From NCBI GenBank assembly GCA_012934845.2, contig WNNJ02001120.1, positions 62,001 to 126,000 of the forward strand: DNA of 64,000 nucleotides, read 5' to 3'. Of this stretch, positions 644 to 55,318 are shown in pieces. A program made the translations under genes and the position numbers. Under the pieces are notes generated by a model. The model was not told the DNA's origin, did no database searches, and was given only the letters and a program-made list of their open reading frames with translations. This stretch comes from Pomphorhynchus laevis. Its lineage: Eukaryota; Acanthocephala; Palaeacanthocephala; Echinorhynchida; Pomphorhynchidae. Every line of letters starts with the position of its first letter. Positions within the stretch are counted from its first letter, which is position 1.

Positions 644-3516
644 TCGATCTCGCTCCTAAGCATACTTTTCGTCTTAGTCTATTCAATACTCGCTCCATTC
701 TTCATAAAGCTGATATGCTTCTAGATATCTTCGATCAATTATCTATCGATATTCTCTGCATTACCGAATCCTGGCACACTGACTCCAACGATCTTGCTAT
801 TCGTCGTCTATGTCGCTCTGGTTGTTCTCTAGTTAAATCAGCTCGTCAAATTACATCTCATACATCTACTGCGTCTAACCATGGCGGTATTGTTGCCATT
901 GCTCGTCACCCAATGTCTTTACGTAAAATCAACGTTAACATCCGTTACACCTCGTTCGAATTACTCATATGCAGATTATCAACTCCTTTCCCTCTGGAAC
1001 TTGTGATTGTATACCGTCCAGGTTCAGTTGCCCCATCACGTATCTTCTTTAACGACCTTGCAGATCTAATGTCTCACTGTTCATTGTCTTATACTCCTTC
1101 TTTTGTTCTCGGTGACTTTAACATTCGTCTTGATCGCCCGTCTGACTCTGACTCTATCACTTTAACTAATCTTTTTTCTGATTTTAACTATAAATTACTT
1201 TCAACAAGCCCAACTCATATTCTCGGCGGTGCTCTCGACATCATTGCTGTTCCTAACTGCTTCAATGACTATACCTCCTTGTCAATTACTGATCCTGGTT
1301 TGTCCGATCATTTCCTTGTCACTCTTACTCTTACTCGTCCCCATCCTCCTTCTCCGCCTTTACCATTATCTACACCAAGTCGACCCTGGAAGCTTCTCGA
1401 TATCCCTATTCTCTGCACATCCTTACTCAATTCTTCACTCTTTTCACTTCCTCTTAACTATCTCTCTCCCGATGATCTCTGCATTCTGTTTGATTCTGAA
1501 CTTACGTCGATCCTCAATAACCTTCTACCTAGTCGACTTCGACGTTCCCAGCGCTTGCGCCATGCTCCCTGGTTCGATTCTGACTGTAGTCTTTCTAAGC
1601 GTCGACTCCATCACTCTTTTCGTATGTATAAACGCTTTCTTAAACGTTCACCCAACTCACTCCCTCCAAATCTTCGTGATTCCTACTTTTCTCAACGCCG
1701 TTCACATCTCATTCTTATACGTACTAAACGTACTCTCTTTTGGCAAAATCAACTCGAGTCATCTTCCAACTCGAAATCTCATTGGAAAATCTTAAACTCA
1801 ATTCTTTCACGATCATCTACCCCTTGTAATATAAATCCTGATGAATTTTCTTCTTATCTACAAACTAAGCTATCTAATTTACTTTCCCTACTACCCATAG
1901 CCCCCTTGTACCCACTCTTATCTTTAAATACTTCCCTCCCAGAACTATTCCACCTTCTTCCCGTTTCGTCTGATGAAGTTTCTTCGGTTCTGCTGTCATT
2001 ACCTAATAAAACCTCTCCTTCTGACCCAATTCCCACTCACTTACTTAAAAATATCTGCACTTTTATCTTACCCTTCCTAACCACATTGTTCAACTCGTCC
2101 ATCCGTAGCTGTACATTTCCTTCCATCTGGAAATGCGCCACTGTTCGTCCTATCATCAAAAAGCAATCTCTCGACTCTTCACTACCATCTTCGTACCGTC
2201 CAATCTCACTTCTCCCAACCCTCTCTAAACTCCTTGAGCGTCTCGTTCTTAAGCAAGTTAATACATATCTCTATTCCTCTAACTTATTTCCTCCCTTCCA
2301 AGCCGCTTTTCGCTCTAATTACTCTACCGAAATTGCATGTCTTAAAGTTTATAACGACTTACTCATATCGCGCGATCATAAATTATGTAGTGTCATAGTT
2401 TCTCTTGATCTATCGTCTGCTTTTGACATCGTCGATCACTCGATTCTTCTCCATCGCCTTCGTCATGATTATGGCTTCTCTTTACCCACTGCATCATGGT
2501 TTTCTTCATATCTATCAAACCGTACATTTCGCGTATATTCTAACTCTTCTCTCTCCCATCCTTCGTCCATTCCGTCCGGTGTTCCGCAAGGCTCCGTATT
2601 AGGCCCTATACTTTTCTCTCTTCTTCTTGGTGATTTGTCTTCGATTTCTCATAAATTTAACTTCCATGTTATGCAATATGCTGATGACATTCTCATCTAT
2701 GCTCATGCACCTGTTTATCGTATTCGCGATCTTAGTGTTTCTGCTTCCGACTGTCTTGTCTCAATTTCCAATCATCTTTCTTCCCTTCGCCTTTCTCTGA
2801 ATCCTGATAAATCCAAAATTATGTGGATCCTACCTCGACGCCTCGGCGTAGAACCTCCCTCCGTATCATTAAATTCTACAATTCTTCCTATCGTTGATAA
2901 TCTCGTTTTCATAGGCTTCCATTTTGACAACCGACTTTTACTTAAACCTTTCGTTAGAGATAAAGTACGCTCATCTACCTTGATACTCCGCAACCTCCGT
3001 CAAGTTCGTAGATTGATCGATTTCCCTTCTTGTATGACTCTCATATCATCTCTCCTTTTTTCTAGACTCGATTATTGTCTTAGTCTATTTTCCAACTCAC
3101 CTAAATCCACTCTTCTTCCCCTACAACGCATCGTCAACGCAGCTGTCCGAATTCTCCTCCGTCTTCGTCGTTTTGATCACACATCCTACCATCTTGCTTC
3201 TCTCGATTTGCCTACAATTTATTGTCGTGTTCAAATTCGTCTTCTTATCGTTGCTTTCCGCCTTGTAACTTTTCATACCCCTTCATTTCTCAACCTTCCT
3301 TTTCTTGATAATTCCCGTCCTGTTTACTGTTCCTTGCGTTCCTGTAATTCCCTTCTTTTACATGTCCCAAACTACTCTACCTCCTTTGGACTCCGCTCCT
3401 TCCTGGTGGCTGCTCCTCTATCGTGGAATCATCTGCCCATTCATATACGCCAATCAACTTCCCTGCAGTGCTTCAAACGACAAATCCGATCCCATCTGAA
3501 CAATTTAACTGCTTGA
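607..3516 (+). CDS. Element A ORF2: endonuclease-reverse transcriptase (intact, 969 aa)
   Basis: Uninterrupted polyprotein of a non-LTR retrotransposon of the CR1/L2/Jockey group. The N-terminal AP-type endonuclease (about residues 20-240) keeps FNTRS, ITESW, IVYRPG, LGDFNIRLD near residue 169 and SDHF near 234. The reverse transcriptase (about 470-760) shows SLDLSSAFDIVDHS near 600, GVPQGSVLGP near 658 and MQYADD near 692, so the catalytic Asp residues are present. A C-terminal region with APLSWNHLPIHIR closes the protein, as in other members. Length is normal for a full ORF2. The ATG at 607 lies inside ORF1. The lack of stops or frameshifts, unlike nearly every other copy here, suggests a young and perhaps competent copy. 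Confidence 0.92.
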   Translation: MASHLSPLSSSLVDLAPKHTFRLSLFNTRSILHKADMLLDIFDQLSIDILCITESWHTDSNDLAIRRLCRSGCSLVKSARQITSHTSTASNHGGIVAIARHPMSLRKINVNIRYTSFELLICRLSTPFPLELVIVYRPGSVAPSRIFFNDLADLMSHCSLSYTPSFVLGDFNIRLDRPSDSDSITLTNLFSDFNYKLLSTSPTHILGGALDIIAVPNCFNDYTSLSITDPGLSDHFLVTLTLTRPHPPSPPLPLSTPSRPWKLLDIPILCTSLLNSSLFSLPLNYLSPDDLCILFDSELTSILNNLLPSRLRRSQRLRHAPWFDSDCSLSKRRLHHSFRMYKRFLKRSPNSLPPNLRDSYFSQRRSHLILIRTKRTLFWQNQLESSSNSKSHWKILNSILSRSSTPCNINPDEFSSYLQTKLSNLLSLLPIAPLYPLLSLNTSLPELFHLLPVSSDEVSSVLLSLPNKTSPSDPIPTHLLKNICTFILPFLTTLFNSSIRSCTFPSIWKCATVRPIIKKQSLDSSLPSSYRPISLLPTLSKLLERLVLKQVNTYLYSSNLFPPFQAAFRSNYSTEIACLKVYNDLLISRDHKLCSVIVSLDLSSAFDIVDHSILLHRLRHDYGFSLPTASWFSSYLSNRTFRVYSNSSLSHPSSIPSGVPQGSVLGPILFSLLLGDLSSISHKFNFHVMQYADDILIYAHAPVYRIRDLSVSASDCLVSISNHLSSLRLSLNPDKSKIMWILPRRLGVEPPSVSLNSTILPIVDNLVFIGFHFDNRLLLKPFVRDKVRSSTLILRNLRQVRRLIDFPSCMTLISSLLFSRLDYCLSLFSNSPKSTLLPLQRIVNAAVRILLRLRRFDHTSYHLASLDLPTIYCRVQIRLLIVAFRLVTFHTPSFLNLPFLDNSRPVYCSLRSCNSLLLHVPNYSTSFGLRSFLVAAPLSWNHLPIHIRQSTSLQCFKRQIRSHLNNLTA

Positions 3517-4501: not shown

Positions 4502-4616
4502 ACATGGAAAAGATTTTCCAGATCTTTATTAAACAAATTTTTTTCACATTTTTTTATCTCTTTCTTTATGTTTTAATAAATAAATTGATTTATTGTATTT
4601 GATTGCATCTGTGAGC

Positions 4617-4857
4617 TGAAATTTTTCCGATTGTGGCACGATATTATCCTCACAGGTATTGATCTTATTTTTGATACAGCAGGACGCTACTAATCAGTCT
4701 GGGTGGGTCTCATCAGCTGCTGACCCAGACCTACATTTCACGTTTCGACCCTTATTTTCTGTTTTCTCCGTTGACTGATACTGATCGGATTTGAACTCAG
4801 GACGTCTGTATCGTGATTCAACGCAACATCCACTAAGCTGGCTGCTCCAGTGGTGTA
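4617..4857 (-). repeat. tRNA-derived SINE, minus copy of an inverted pair
   Basis: Reverse complement of the SINE at 5061-5297, nearly identical over ~235 bp. On the minus strand it starts with a tRNA-like head holding a box A-like CAGCTTAGTGG and a box B-like GTTCAAATCC, followed by a unique body and tail. The 5' ends of the two copies face each other across an AT-rich palindromic centre. Confidence 0.75.
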
Positions 4858-5060
4858 GATATACATTTCTGTATATTACTTTTAGTAAAGTATATTACTA
4901 AAAGTAATATACAGAAATGTATATCTACACGACTGGAGCAGCCAGCTTAGTGGATGTTGCGTTGAATCACTAAAAGTAATGTATATTAATTACTATACAT
5001 TACTAAAAGTAATGTATAGTAAAGTATATTACTAAAAGTAATATACAGAAATGTATATCT
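4858..5060. repeat. AT-rich palindromic centre with a SINE head fragment
   Basis: Repeated blocks of ACTAAAAGTAATATAC and its complement form local palindromes around 4866-4925 and 4970-5055. Positions ~4930-4970 hold a third, truncated SINE head on the plus strand that stops after GAATCAC and passes into the same AT repeat. No coding potential is visible. Confidence 0.7.
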
Positions 5061-5297
5061 ACACCACTGGAGCAGCCAGCTTAGTGGATGTTGCGTTGAA
5101 TCACGATACAAACGTCCTGAGTTCAAATCCGATCAGTATCAGTCAACGGAGAAAACAGATAATAAGGGTCGAAACGTGAAATGTAGGTCTGGGTCAGCAG
5201 CTGATGAGACCCACCCAGACTGATTAGTAGCGTCCTGCTGTATCAAAAATAAGATCAATACCTGTGAGGATAATATCGTGCCACAATCGGAAAAATT
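5061..5297 (+). repeat. tRNA-derived SINE, plus copy
   Basis: Box A-like CAGCTTAGTGG at 5077-5087 and box B-like GTTCAAATCC at 5121-5130 lie 33 nt apart (a tRNA-type spacing), so an internal RNA polymerase III promoter is likely. The body contains GGGTC-GAAAC at 5166-5175 and CTGATGA-GACCC at 5201-5212, and a further 8-bp complement GTCTGGGT (5187-5194) with ACCCAGAC (5213-5220). The tRNA head is established SINE architecture; the body module is treated as a separate finding. Confidence 0.75.
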
Positions 5298-5334: not shown

Positions 5335-5512
5335 AACGAAAAAGCAGAAAATATCCTTTATTTGATAAAAATTCTATATTTCGATAGTTCCTGCTATCGT
5401 CATCAGGATTACAATAAAATGTTTCACACATATTGTAATCCTGATGATGATAGCAAGAGCTATCAAAATATATAATTTTTATCAAATAAAGGATATTTTC
5501 TGCTTCTTTGTT
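5335..5512. repeat. Long palindrome with hammerhead-like cores (Penelope terminal type)
   Basis: Arms 5344-5420 and 5430-5505 are near-perfect reverse complements. On the minus strand the left arm reads CTGATGA (5406-5400), one extra C, a GATAG/CTATC stem and GAAA. On the plus strand the right arm reads CTGATGA (5441-5447), an extra T, a GATAGC-AAGA-GCTATC stem and AAAA in place of GAAA. This looks like a decayed hammerhead of the kind found in the terminal repeats of Penelope-like elements, present once per arm. Confidence 0.5.
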
Positions 5513-8979: not shown

Positions 8980-9250
8980 TAGTAGCTATTGCCAAAACGT
9001 TTTTGTAGAAGACTGCCAAAAGGTAAACATTATATTTTCGATTAAGGGATAAATATTTCTAGAGATTGATAATGAATGTAAATTGTAAACTAATAAATAA
9101 ATTTTAAATAAAACCTTTTATTGACCATTTAAACTAACCATTAATAAGTGAATCGAATTATTTGACTAACTCCGTATATTAATTGAACATTATAATTTAA
9201 AGTCTTTTAAGAATATAAGAATAAATTAACGAAAAGGATATATATAATAT
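8980..9250. other. Intergenic AT-rich spacer
   Basis: Upstream region of the minus-strand TAF5-like gene. No ORF or clear promoter element could be identified beyond AT-rich sequence. Confidence 0.5.
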
Positions 9251-9252
9251 CA

Positions 9253-9693
9253 GTGCACGGATGTGCTGAGTAAACAACGGTCCAGGATTTCTTACAAAAT
9301 ACGGCATTTATACTAAATGGTGTTGCTTGATAGACTGGACTTCGATTCACGACTTTCAGTCACCATGTCACTTCTAGACGACCAATGAGTACCCGGCAAC
9401 ACTCATCAGTAGAATGAAGTACCCACTGGCCGTTTTCGGTTGCCTCTGTGACATTGCGAATAAAAACGTTTCCGACACTTTGCTTAATTGTCTGAGGCTT
9501 ACGCTCTTAACCAGATCGAATTGCTGTGCGGACCATCCTTAAACACTAGGCAGAGGTTGTTGCTGAATTGTCGCTGCACTCGTTGGATCCTTAATGGATA
9601 CGGCAGGTATAATAGTAGTGCACGGATGTGCTGAGTAAACAACGGTGCAGGATTTCTTACGAAATACGGCATTTATACTAACTAGTGTTGCTC
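9253..9693 (-). repeat. 364-bp repeat family, minus-oriented tandem 1.2 units
   Basis: GTGCACGGATGTGCTGAGTAAAC occurs (in pieces under 20 nt: GTGCACGGATGTGCTG) at 9253 and again at 9618, a 365-bp period. The unit therefore repeats head to tail and is cut in the second copy. It contains on the minus strand the GAAAC / CTGATGA module described for the plus copies. No ORF. It is followed directly by the same unit in the opposite direction. Confidence 0.75.
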
Positions 9694-10209
9694 TATCAAG
9701 CAACACCATTTAGTATAAATGCCGTATTTCGTAAGAAATCCTGGACCGTTGTTTACACAGCACATCGGTGCACTACTATTATACCAGCCGTATCTATTAA
9801 ATGGTATCCACTAAATGGTGTTACTCTATCAAGCAACACCATTTAGTATAAATGCCATATTTCGTAAGAAATCCTGGACCGTTGTTTACTCAGCACATCC
9901 GTGCAATACTATTATACCTGCCGTATCCATTAATGATCCAACAAGTGCAGCGACAATTCAGCAACAACCTCTGCCCAGTGTTTAAGGATGGTCCGCACAG
10001 CAATTCGATCTGGTAAAGAGCGTATACCTCAGACAATTAAGCAAAGTGTCGGAAACGTTTTTATTCGCAATGTCACACAGGCAACCGAAACGGCTAGTGA
10101 GTACTTTATTCTACTGATGAGTGTTGCCGGGTACTCATTGGTCGTCTAGAAGTGACATGGTGACTGAAAGTCGTGAATCGAAGTCCAGTCTATCAAGCAA
10201 CACCATTTA

Positions 10210-10213
<4 letters not shown>
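9694..10213 (+). repeat. 364-bp repeat family, plus-oriented copies
   Basis: A partial plus copy (9694-~9800) precedes a complete unit from TATCAAGCAACACC at 9827 to the same words at 10191 (period 364). Inside are GGCAAC-C-GAAAC (10080-10091), CTGATGA (10114-10120), GTGTTGCC (10121-10128) and an arm GTACTCATTGGTCGTC from 10131. Together with 9253-9693 it forms a large inverted repeat. Confidence 0.75.

Positions 10214-10270
<57 letters not shown>
10213..10270. repeat. (TA)n microsatellite
   Basis: About 29 uninterrupted TA dinucleotides at the 3' boundary of the 364-bp repeat, beginning in its TTTAGTATA word. It probably arose by slippage at that site. Confidence 0.95.
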
Positions 10271-10271
<1 letters not shown>

Positions 10272-10289
10272 CAATTATCGGTTATCACA

Positions 10290-10412
10290 AAAGCAGTCGA
10301 AACACTAACTACTTCATCCGACTGACGATGACTGCTGGGTAATTAGGAACGTCTCGGAGTGATACATTAAACTGATGGAGTTGAAGATCGAAGTCCAGTT
10401 ATTTAGCAGCAA
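10290..10412 (+). repeat. Repeat fragment with GAAAC / CTGACGA module
   Basis: GCAGTC-GAAAC (10293-10303), CTAACTAC (10305-10312), CTGACGA (10322-10328), GACTGC (10330-10335) and GTAATTAG (10339-10346) occur in the same order as the equivalent parts of the 364-bp family. ATCGAAGTCCAGT at ~10387-10399 also matches that family's end. Likely a diverged relative; its paired segments differ but remain largely complementary. Confidence 0.5.
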
Positions 10413-10490
10413 ATATGGCTAAAAAATCGTGGCTAATTTCGACTTCTGGACCACAGTTTCAAGCAATTTTTCGCACTATATATATTAGTG

Positions 10491-10862
10491 TACTCATAAA
10501 TAAATCACAGTTTTTTTCTCATGAAGAGGCCTAAACACCAGGCAGCATTTTATATATCTTCATCCGACCAAGACATAGGACCGAATTATTCTCGCAGTAT
10601 TCAAAGTCGCTACGTACACCCAGTCATCCTATGTGTGACGACAAACTTCAACAACGATAGACGCGTTTCGCTCTCTTGGATTTCAGTACCGTGACTTCAA
10701 TAATCATTCACATGCACCTTAGCACACGCTTAAACAGTGTTTAAAGCTGGAAAAACAGAACTACCCTTAATCTGAATCATCAGAGGGAATTTAGCATAAG
10801 CTCTGTACATGGCAGCGCCTATTGCAGTTTAACCATGTATTAGGCACTAAATTCCTTTAAAT
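10491..10862 (-). repeat. Hammerhead repeat unit 1 (retrozyme-like)
   Basis: Direct repeat of 10952-11322, roughly 85% alike by eye, beginning with CATGAAGAGGC.. and ending at a GTTTAACCATG..AGGCACTAA block. The offset is ~461 bp. No ORF. Each unit carries a hammerhead at the equivalent place on the minus strand; this one has a damaged core. Confidence 0.7.
10654..10692 (-). ncRNA. Hammerhead ribozyme, degenerate copy
   Basis: On the minus strand stem I pairs ACGGTA (10692-10687) with TATCGT (10659-10654), including one T-G wobble. GAAACGCGTC follows, with the expected cleavage after GTC at 10660. The conserved CTGATGA box is reduced to CTGAAAT by a small deletion, so the core should be inactive. 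Confidence 0.65.
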
Positions 10863-10951
10863 AGAAATGCTGTTTTACAAGAACACTTTAAAGTATGCAA
10901 ATATATAAAATATAATTTGTTGTTACACCTGCCCCGGGACACCCAATGGTG

Positions 10952-11322
10952 CACTCGCAAATAAATCGCTATGTTTTCTTCATGAGGAGGCATGAAGACC
11001 AGGCGGCATTCTATATATCTTCATCCGACCAAGACATATAACCGAATTATTCTCGCAATATTTAAAGTCGCTACGTATACCCGGTCATTCTATGTGTGAC
11101 GACAAACTTCCATTACGGTATACGCGTTTCGCTCTAACGGAACTCATCAGTACCGTGACTTCAATAATCATCCATAGACACTGAATAGCATTAAACAGTG
11201 TTTAATGCTCGAAAAACAGAAATACCCTTAATCTGAATCGTCAGAGGGAATTTAGCATTTGCTCTGGGCATGACAGTGCGTATTGCAGTTTAACCATGCA
11301 TCAGGCACTAAGATAAAATATT
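10952..11322 (-). repeat. Hammerhead repeat unit 2 (retrozyme-like)
   Basis: Second unit of the tandem pair, in the same orientation as 10491-10862. It is bounded upstream by CTGCCCCGGGACACCC, a GC-rich block not seen in unit 1, and downstream by an AT-rich stretch leading into an A-like LINE relic. Confidence 0.7.
11115..11156 (-). ncRNA. Canonical hammerhead ribozyme
   Basis: Read on the minus strand: stem I ACGGTA (11156-11151), conserved CTGATGA (11150-11144), stem II GTTC-CGTTA-GAGC (four pairs, one G-U), conserved GAAA, a very short stem III within ACGCGT, cleavage triplet GTA ending at 11121, then TACCGT (11120-11115), which pairs perfectly over six bases with stem I. All core nucleotides of the hammerhead consensus are present. 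The two-pair stem III is the form known from newt satellite, Penelope and retrozyme hammerheads, which usually work as dimers. Confidence 0.88.
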
Positions 11323-15880: not shown

Positions 15881-16868
15881 AAAACTGGATTGATCTAGAA
15901 CTGGATTGATCTGGAACTGGATTGATCTGGAACTGGATTGATCTGGAACTGGATTGATCTGGATTGATCTGGAACGATTGATCTGGAACTGGATTGATCT
16001 GGAACTGGATTGATCTGGAACTGGATTGATCTGGAACTGGATTGATCTGGAACTGGATTGATCTGGAACTGGATTGATCTGGAACTGGATTGATCTGGAA
16101 CTGGATTGATCTGGAACTGGATTGATCTGGAACTGGATTGATCTGGAACTGGATTGATCTGGAACTGGATTGATCTGGAACTGGATTGATCTGGAACTGG
16201 ATTGATCTGGAACTGGATTGATCTGGAACTGGATTGATCTGGAACTGGATTGATCTGGAACTGGATTGATCTGGAACTGGATTGATCTGGAACTGGATTG
16301 ATCTGGAACTGGATTGATCTGGAACTGGATTGATCTGGAACTGGATTGATCTGGAACTGGATTGATCTGGAACTGGATTGATCTGGAACTGGATTGATCT
16401 GGAACTGGATTGATCTGGAACTGGATTGATCTGGAACTGGATTGATCTGGAACTGGATTGATCTGGAACTGGATTGATCTGGAACTGGATTGATCTGGAA
16501 CTGGATTGATCTGGAACTGGATTGATCTGGAACTGGATTGATCTGGAACTGGATTGATCTGGAACTGGATTGATCTGGAACTGGATTGATCTGGAACTGG
16601 ATTGATCTGGAACTGGATTGATCTGGAACTGGATTGATCTGGAACTGGATTGATCTGGAACTGGATTGATCTGGAACTGGATTGATCTGGAACTGGATTG
16701 ATCTGGAACTGGATTGATCTGGAACTGGATTGATCCGGAACTGGATTGATCCGGAACTGGATTGATCCGGAACTGGATTGATCCGGAACTGGATTGATCC
16801 GGAACTGGATTGATCTGGAACTAGATTGATCTGGAACTGGATTGATCTGGAACCGGATTGATCTGGAA
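15881..16868. repeat. 16-bp minisatellite, ~60 copies
   Basis: Unit GGAACTGGATTGATCT repeated for about 988 bp. The first units are variant (AAAACTGGATTGATCT, TAGAACTGG) and one short irregularity lies near 15955-15980. A run of five GATCCGG variants occupies ~16725-16805, and the last units carry CTAGATTG and ACCGGATTG changes. Homogeneous in the middle and degenerate at the edges, as expected of unequal exchange or slippage. It begins ~110 bp upstream of element B's ORF1 start. Confidence 0.97.
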
Positions 16869-54555: not shown

Positions 54556-54584
54556 TTATATATACAAAATTGTGTTGCTTGTTA

Positions 54585-55318
54585 CACTGAACTTTGATTC
54601 ACGACTTTCAGTCACTATGTCACTTCTAGACAACCAATGTGTACCTGGCAATACTCATCAGTAGAATGAAGTACTCACTGGTCGTATTGGTTGTCTGTGT
54701 GACATTGTGAATAAAGGCTTTTCCGACACTTTGCAATGTCACACAGGCAACAGAAACGACCAGTGAGTAATTCATTCTACTGATGAGTGTTGCCGGGTAC
54801 TCATTGGTCGTCTAGAAGTGACATGGTGACTGAAAGTCGTGAATCAAAGTCCAATCTAATAATCAATAGCATTTTGTGTAAATGCCGTATTTCGAAAGAA
54901 ATCCTGGACGGTTGTCTACTCAGCACATCCGTGCTCTACTATTATACATGCTGTATCCATTAAGGATCCAACAAGTGCAGCTACAACTCAGCAACAACCT
55001 CTGCCTAGTGTTTAAGGATGGTCCGCACAGCTTTTTATCTGGTAAAGAGCGTATACCTCAGACAATTAAGCAAAGTGTCGGAAACGCCTTTATTCACAAT
55101 GTCACACAGACAACCGAAACGACCAGTGAGTACTTCATTCTACTGATGAGTGTTGCCGGGTACTTATTGGTCGTCTAGAAGTGACATGGTGACTGAAAGT
55201 CGCGAATCAAAGTCCAGTCTAACAAGCAACATCATTTTGTATAAATGCCGTATTTCGAAAGAAATCATGTACCGTTGTCTACTCAGCACATCGGTGCACT
55301 ACTATTATATACGGTAAA
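54585..55318. repeat. 364-bp repeat family: inverted fragment plus tandem plus-oriented units
   Basis: A minus-oriented fragment (54585-~54725) is followed by plus-oriented sequence with CTGATGA at 54780-54786 and again at 55143-55149, a 363-bp period. GAAACGACCAGTGAGTAC precedes each CTGATGA, and TGTTGCCGGG follows. Same layout (inverted then tandem) as at 9253-10213, 45 kb away. Confidence 0.75.

Follow-up and report, generated by a model that had tools for sequence, protein, structure and literature searches.

The closest described systems are the metazoan non-LTR retrozymes, Penelope elements and a permuted hammerhead ribozyme from a bacterium. In the available part of their description, metazoan non-LTR retrozymes are non-coding tandem units of 150–450 bp with low GC content, carrying one type I hammerhead per unit and forming dimers to multimers (Cervera and de la Pena 2020, PMC7229834). 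The same part reports that newt and axolotl hammerheads of the palindromic, short-stem-III shape act as dimers. For Penelope, the consulted parts of two sources give two alternative 3′ ends (the “tail”), AT-rich targets, internal initiation and the extension of both strands (PMC11167929; PMC3846280). The hammerhead of type GCS was the weakest of the six block orders. In the accessible part of Eckert et al. 2023 (PMC10085705), it was represented by one sequence, GCS-1 from Caballeronia peredens, which cleaved slowly in vitro (kobs 0.014 per min) and lacked covariation; its authors urge scepticism. Judged from the listing, this was the sole relevant paper found in a literature search on the type-GCS hammerhead. 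The literature searches returned no paper joining acanthocephala with the hammerhead ribozyme, and none joining Pomphorhynchus with a ribozyme.

The window studied here is a 64,000-nucleotide stretch of Pomphorhynchus laevis DNA, and the genome searches covered a 249-Mb eukaryote assembly of 3242 contigs. One protein encoded in the window, which we label HSD17B10-like, shares 93% identity with GJ496_009561 of P. laevis. On the sequence evidence, we assign a probability of about 0.82 to the reading that the locus flagged in the initial annotation is a 5′-truncated, decayed copy of a non-LTR retrozyme (F1), lying beside retrozyme-like families with a hammerhead in G-C-S order. As a retrozyme family, F1 falls within a described class; what had not been expected is that the neighboring repeats carry a permuted hammerhead.

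The F1 array and its neighbors in the window

The flagged stretch contains two direct units offset by 461 bp, as the initial annotation had described. The copies were 84% alike over 198 nt (10488–10685 versus 10949–11146) and 89% alike over a second stretch of 121 nt at the same offset (10730–10850 versus 11191–11311). The hammerhead proposed in one unit was recovered. On the minus strand, CTGATGA (11150–11144) is followed by a GTTC/GAGC stem II and then GAAA, so that CUGAUGA, GAAA and GUA are all present, with 6 bp in stem I and 4 bp in stem II. The substrate GTA^TACCGT pairs with ACGGTA, and the predicted cut site matches the one given earlier (11121/11120). The minimal stem III (ACGCGT in the DNA) is nothing but the palindrome ACGCGU. 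The other unit was correctly described as broken: its hammerhead lost essential bases, because its core reads CTGAAATCC. No open reading frame of at least 120 aa lies within 10488–11311, and the array is non-coding by that measure. The flagged repeat is thus confirmed as a decayed, 1.8-unit copy of F1.

Taken alone, the F1 motif of the window is not far above chance. At its loosest setting, the descriptor gave one type I (CGS) match in the window, as compared with 0.061 per random window. In an Rfam scan, a check of the kind that had been suggested, no window match to the hammerhead families reached the gathering score; the best score for F1 was 20.4 bits (E 0.56), versus a gathering score of 48.5. 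We accept the motif as real because of its family, whose units and ribozyme pattern are matched genome-wide. The window copy is 5′-truncated and unable to release a monomer itself, because a monomer needs two cuts and one of the two hammerheads in this copy is broken. The earlier proposal of a 461-nt circle, produced now or in the past from this locus, is therefore unsupported for the window copy, and the candidate source becomes the family.

Copies of families A and B adjoin the F1 copy, and family C lies further off (Table 1). The two family A arms together account for a palindrome at 9500–10024. In the hammerhead at 10072–10156, the blocks follow the order IIb-GAAA-IIIa, Ia-CUGAUGA-IIa, IIIb-GUC-Ib, and all hammerhead letters are present. 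As read from these letters, it is of type GCS in the block naming found in the consulted part of Eckert et al. 2023 (PMC10085705). In family A, stem II requires a bulged U, and stem III of the family B fragment is partly decayed. The right arm of family C also has its hammerhead in G-C-S order. By the descriptor, the window copies of family C have 6 bp in stem I, 5 bp in stem II and 4 bp in the inner part of stem III.

The descriptor treats all six block orders alike. With at least 4 bp in stem I, 4 in stem II and 3 in stem III, it found five GCS matches in the window and none for the other five orders. Random windows (order-1 Markov) gave a mean of 0.085 with the same descriptor, and 0 of 1000 reached five; the five matches are not due to chance. 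The stricter descriptor setting was applied to 230 kb of loci (L009–L073), which, except for L071–L073, had been fetched for reasons other than G-C-S. It yielded 23 GCS, 2 SCG, 1 SGC and 1 CGS matches. A type-SGC candidate at L035 843 was rejected; it lies in a common repeat, and on visual reading its stem II pairs only with an offset and with two G-U pairs. Rfam miRNA matches at 9641–9750 (MIR1319 and others), all below gathering, are explained by the head-to-head family A palindrome.

Table 1. Positions of the F1 array, of the neighboring repeats with their predicted hammerheads (window coordinates) and, in the last row, of a family A variant at four other loci
Feature	Position	Strand	Details
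Family C repeat (398-bp unit), left arm	4589–4887	−	G-C-S hammerhead, CTGATGA at 4716, H17 at 4683
Family C repeat, right arm	4896–5297 (4896–4970 + 5030–5297)	+	CTGATGA at 5201, H17 at 5234
Family A repeat, left arm of head-to-head array	9243–9692	−	G-C-S hammerhead, CTGATGA at 9409, H17 at 9377
Family A repeat, right arm	9692–10217 (9692–9798 + 9825–10217)	+	Terminates in (TA)30 tract
G-C-S hammerhead of family A	10072–10156	+	Predicted cleavage after 10146; P0 10072–10076/10152–10156; IIb 10080–10085; GAAA 10087–10090; IIIa 10090–10104; Ia 10109–10113; CTGATGA 10114–10120; IIa 10121–10128; IIIb 10131–10145; H17 10146; Ib 10147–10151
(TA)30 tract	10211–10270	.	Family A 3′ junction
Family B fragment (391-bp unit)	10281–10478	+	G-C-S hammerhead, CTGACGA at 10322, H17 at 10353
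F1 array (putative retrozyme)	10488–11311	−	~1.8 units of 461–464 bp; sense 3′ end 10488, 5′ end 11311
Decayed F1 hammerhead	10654–10692	−	Core bases lost
Intact minimal type I F1 hammerhead	11115–11156	−	Predicted cleavage between 11121 and 11120
Family A repeat, left arm	54558–54734	−	Ribozyme with CTGATGA at 54661, GAAA changed to AATA
Family A repeat, right arm	54734–55309	+	Two G-C-S hammerheads, CTGATGA at 54780 and 55143, H17 at 54812 and 55175
UUCG-hairpin variant of family A	L010 1004–1121; L041 3889–4006; L059 997–1115; L060 606–724		

G-C-S families across the genome

All seven G-C-S families (A1, A2, A3, B, B2, C and D) keep CUGANGA, GAAA and the cleavage site. The spacing of neighbors gave unit lengths of 364 bp for A1, 360 bp for A2, 357 bp for A3, 398 bp for C, 365 bp for D and 390–392 bp for B; the 393-bp spacing of B2 was found once. 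Genome searches returned at least 41 matches for family A (40 of 1450 candidates scored), at least 202 for B (39 of 1008), at least 41 for C (40 of 2068) and at least 41 for D (40 of 1351). The core pattern GAAACGN{10,14}TTCANNNNACTGANGA, which contains no complete stem strand, had 4375 genome matches versus 2 for its reversal. Family D was reached via this pattern; the letters of its stems III and I were new, and their pairing was kept. The covariance model R1, which omits stems I and II, was run on the sequence already collected. It gave 51 matches to E 10, of which 46 fell at E < 0.01, and these copies were mostly known before.

Covariation was examined in 24 copies from A1, A2, A3, B, B2 and D, hand-chosen mostly for their intact look; family C stood outside the alignments. 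Paired letters filled 95.8% of the cells, as compared with 24–50% when the partners were slid. Two-sided changes occurred at 11 of the 24 pairs (two in stem I, three in stem II, five in stem III and one in the outer helix). Five measures were run on this set. The covariation score was 0.406 versus 0.159 after shuffling, and 87 cells had a two-sided change versus 31.2; none of 500 shuffles reached as high in either case. Two measures did not beat the shuffles: the number of pairs with a two-sided change, reached in 158 of 500, and the number of pair types, reached in 423 of 500. They fail because the changes represent few events between related families. An earlier set of 15 copies had shown two-sided changes at 10 of 25 pairs and a score of 0.355 (0.158 shuffled). 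With one representative per family and the strands typed from copies, own strands paired at 165 of 166 positions. On these alignments, the six families appear to covary in stems I, II and III, and it is on these stems, not on the outer helix, that the argument rests. Another 20 loci were picked because their letters deviate; a stem I of at least 4 bp survives in 10 of them, so many G-C-S copies are decaying.

These hammerheads share the G-C-S order and the conserved letters with GCS-1 as presented in the available part of PMC10085705. Unlike that single bacterial sequence, they occur in seven animal families, match the core pattern at thousands of places and show covariation in all three stems. 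On the same partial view of the source, the outer helix and the retrozyme-like arrays belong to the P. laevis families and not to GCS-1. The order thus gains covariation and an animal host, and such arrays are a context where self-cutting RNA has a known role. The permuted hammerhead of families A, B, C and D is, in turn, absent from the consulted part of the retrozyme description (PMC7229834).

Two further features of the repeats were recorded. A small UUCG-capped hairpin is inserted in stem IIIb of some family A copies (Table 1), and this insert may give stem III a hinge. In one family C unit (L072), the ribozyme is preceded upstream by an A-box/B-box-like pair that recalls a Pol III promoter of the tRNA type. 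The pair has three mismatches in total; 33 of 2000 shuffles did as well, and family C gave no tRNA with ARAGORN. The pair could be a hint of Pol III transcription.

Folding and a proposed cutting between units

Seven short representatives were folded. The minimum-energy fold included stem III in six of them, the exception being the decayed family B copy of the window. The outer helix formed as drawn in four of the seven (A2, A3, B and C), and it did so too when the A unit was folded whole as a circle; in the two A1 pieces, a second GTGAC a few nucleotides downstream captured the 5′ strand of this helix. The hairpin loop closed by 2–5 further pairs in six of the seven representatives, and these would have to open for the catalytic strand. 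Stem III has 12–17 bp in the intact-looking copies, and the linker between IIa and IIIb leaves 0–2 free nucleotides.

In known hammerheads, stems II and III are stacked end to end. By our estimate, their far ends would lie ~60 Å apart in the G-C-S fold, and a linker of at most 2 nt should therefore not allow closure within one unit. Closure between two units should be feasible. We tentatively propose, at somewhat short of even odds, that the G-C-S hammerhead is an inter-unit ribozyme, whose units dock and cut each other. Each unit would form a long stem III hairpin, with the catalytic strand Ia-CUGANGA-IIa in the loop and the substrate strands IIb-GAAA...C17-Ib at the base. The loop of one unit would dock into the base of its neighbor and restore the ordinary hammerhead connectivity (C1-G2-S2 or G1-S1-C2). 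Docking would also bring stems I and II together at their distal ends, under the partner's hairpin. Since cutting would need two units, multimers would be cut to monomers and single circles would stay whole. The shape thus suggests that a restriction of cutting to multimers is built in. If true, this would answer a question raised in the available part of PMC7229834, namely how animal retrozyme circles avoid cutting themselves. The palindromic stem III of F1 may, by analogy, point the same way.

It is also conceivable that a single unit suffices for cutting if stem III opens in its outer part, as the published GCS-1 would do. According to the accessible part of PMC10085705, that sequence cleaved as one short transcript, in a reaction that was slow and incomplete. 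Against this, a stem III of 12–17 bp with a linker of 0–2 nt leaves no slack, and all four of the outer stem III pairs counted were kept by two-sided changes. We regard cutting within one unit as unlikely.

The presence of stem III in nearly all of the folds would suit yet another reading, in which a conserved stem-loop made of stem III and the outer helix has some other role, for example as a landing site for reverse transcriptase, and the hammerhead letters are inherited relics; the outer helix was drawn in the folds less often. We find this improbable, because stems I and II, which are dispensable for a hairpin, also change in pairs (5 pairs). In these two stems, own-family strands of the representatives paired at 75 of 76 positions, as compared with 237 of 332 across families. 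CUGANGA and GAAA were invariant in the 24 copies, and H17 was C, or U in three D copies. We infer from this pairing and conservation that the G-C-S motif probably cleaves.

Dispersal and insertion of the repeats

The further tandem copies that the initial annotation had called for were found. A search with the F1 unit gave at least 97 matches, mostly in tandem at ~464 bp (39 of 1383 candidates scored). The F1 ribozyme pattern with at most one mismatch had 1074 genome matches and its reversed control had none. In 36 complete units, selected by an intact-looking ribozyme at both ends, the mean likeness was 93.5% and the GC content 0.39. One long array (C487) comprised at least 19 matches at steps of 463 bp or double, over ~21 unit lengths.

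Array ends were read in 44 distinct F1 arrays, which remained of 47 after three with duplicate flanks were removed. Their length ranged from 0.22 to 5.16 units, with a median of 1.72. The 3′ ends peaked at unit positions 163 and 225, with 20 of 52 no more than 2 nt from one or the other; the majority (32 of 52) lay away from both peaks. The 5′ ends were scattered, with 0 of 33 within 2 nt of these positions and at most three sharing any place. TATATA or ATATAT occurred at 32 of 55 3′ ends versus 9 of 35 5′ ends (counts that include duplicate arrays) and 7.2% of background 28-mers. Head-to-head arms were present in nine of the 44 arrays; two of these (L046 and L058) have 225 on one arm and 163 on the other, and the remaining seven have other pairs of end positions. 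This pattern bears the apparent marks of reverse transcription from preferred points on TA-rich DNA.

These results support the assignment of F1 to the non-LTR retrozymes. Its units are short and tandem, its arrays run from dimers to multimers, and its insertions are dispersed with retro-type ends. With the metazoan retrozymes as described in the available part of PMC7229834, F1 shares non-coding tandem units, low GC content and one type I hammerhead per unit. Its unit of 461–464 bp is slightly above the length given there. Its stem III resembles that of the newt and axolotl hammerheads in the same source, a single pair closed by a tetraloop that is palindromic; F1 differs from them in sequence, in the length of its unit and in its host. 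The class proposed by the initial annotation thus held, with many dispersed tandem arrays, recurrent 3′ and scattered 5′ ends, and no long reading frame in the window array; its 461-nt circle from the window copy and its Penelope elements in the window did not.

In the proposed mechanism, the minimal type I hammerhead would cleave multimeric F1 RNA at one site in every unit; given its palindromic stem III, it should act only when two ribozymes lie next to each other. Ligation would then close the monomers into circles. On AT-rich target DNA, a reverse transcriptase of the Penelope type would initiate at fixed internal positions and run round the circular template, producing tandem copies. Sometimes, both cut strands would be primed, giving head-to-head arms. 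Transcription, cleavage, the circles and the mobilizing enzyme are all deduced, and Penelope-type machinery is perhaps what inserted F1.

Past insertions can be read from the arrays. Only two TATA sites exist in the family A unit, at 65 and 131. The ten family A 3′ ends read (window, L010, L040, L041 and L065) fell at 68–71 or 134–138, at or a few nucleotides from these sites; this set leaves out a rearranged copy in L060, whose ends lie near 97 and 190, as well as copies in L035 and L059 that have diverged further (75%). Three head-to-head family A arrays each have one arm per alternative 3′ end. In family B, the matches short at the 3′ side (at least 11) ended at query positions 211–216 of 391, and the 5′ starts varied. 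The family A record resembles in vitro measurements on a Penelope enzyme. With Penelope elements, as far as the consulted parts of PMC11167929 and PMC3846280 go, the repeats would share AT-rich targets, an internal start of reverse transcription, two 3′ ends, and tandem and inverted arms; a minimal hammerhead is common to Penelope-like elements and F1. In the same part of PMC11167929, the start site and the cut DNA lack homology, but the family A ends share TATA with the flank. Unlike Penelope elements, the F1, A, B and C units (364–464 bp) are too short for a reverse transcriptase and an endonuclease.

Penelope elements, said by the initial annotation to be present here as well, were not found in the window. 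Nine of its reading frames were tested, and the retroelement domains were LINE-type Exo_endo_phos and/or RVT_1. A tblastn search of the window with 20 reading frames from GIY-YIG loci, one of them (L011) UvrC-like, gave no match at E 1e-5. A Penelope-like arrangement occurs elsewhere, at L107, where RVT_1 below the cut-off is followed by GIY-YIG; the putative presence of Penelope in the genome rests on this locus. A motif at 5406 (−) of the window has CTGATGA, a 6-bp stem II and GAAA, and its stem I looks broken. It resembles sequences in GIY-YIG loci L014, L016, L019, L023, L024 and L027, and is possibly the relic of a Penelope hammerhead.

The minimal stem III, the similar minimal motif at position 2561 of GIY-YIG locus L106 and the Penelope-like ends of F1 would also fit a reading of its units as pseudo-LTRs of a Penelope element with its body lost or elsewhere. 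We consider this highly improbable, because blastn at E 1e-3 found no match of F1 in the 20 GIY-YIG loci, in keeping with the initial statement that the unit was not recognized, and none was found in L106–L109. No F1 unit was found flanking a reverse transcriptase and GIY-YIG frame in the loci examined or in the window, whose F1 array lacks a frame of at least 120 aa. In the arrays, F1 units follow at about unit spacing, which leaves no room for a Penelope body between them. That F1 is an ordinary satellite or dead tandem repeat with hammerhead relics, spread by DNA and not RNA processes, would agree with the dead window copy (one core deleted, units 84–89% alike) and with the occurrence of long arrays such as that in C487, but is very doubtful given the dispersed short arrays, the recurrent 3′ and scattered 5′ ends and the head-to-head arms as traces of reverse transcription, and a core kept at about a thousand places.

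Further hammerhead repeats were noted in the genome. Rfam Hammerhead_1 gave at least 65 matches, 62 of them over the cut-off (73 of 40608 candidates scored), and 0 of 14 control genomes (bacteria and archaea) had any. The inspected loci L009, L010, L041, L069 and L070 represent a tandem family of ~296 bp (F2). The ribozymes of F1 and F2 show paired differences in stems I and II; one F1 unit compared with one F2 unit had no convincing similarity among the matches listed. A third type I hammerhead repeat, with stems I, II and III paired, lies at L051 (3150–3400 and 3529–3687), with a hammerhead at 3287 and a second copy ~348 bp off. Minimal type I hammerhead-like motifs were also seen near a GIY-YIG reading frame in L106, at 2561 (+) and 1451 (−). 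The UvrC-like frame of L011 (394–1770, minus strand) has UvrC RNase H and GIY-YIG domains, and its contig is possibly a bacterial contaminant. At 15883–16868 of the window, 62 copies of a 16-bp tandem unit with 97% match probably form a minisatellite; the repeat is open in three minus-strand frames, which encode a repetitive peptide.
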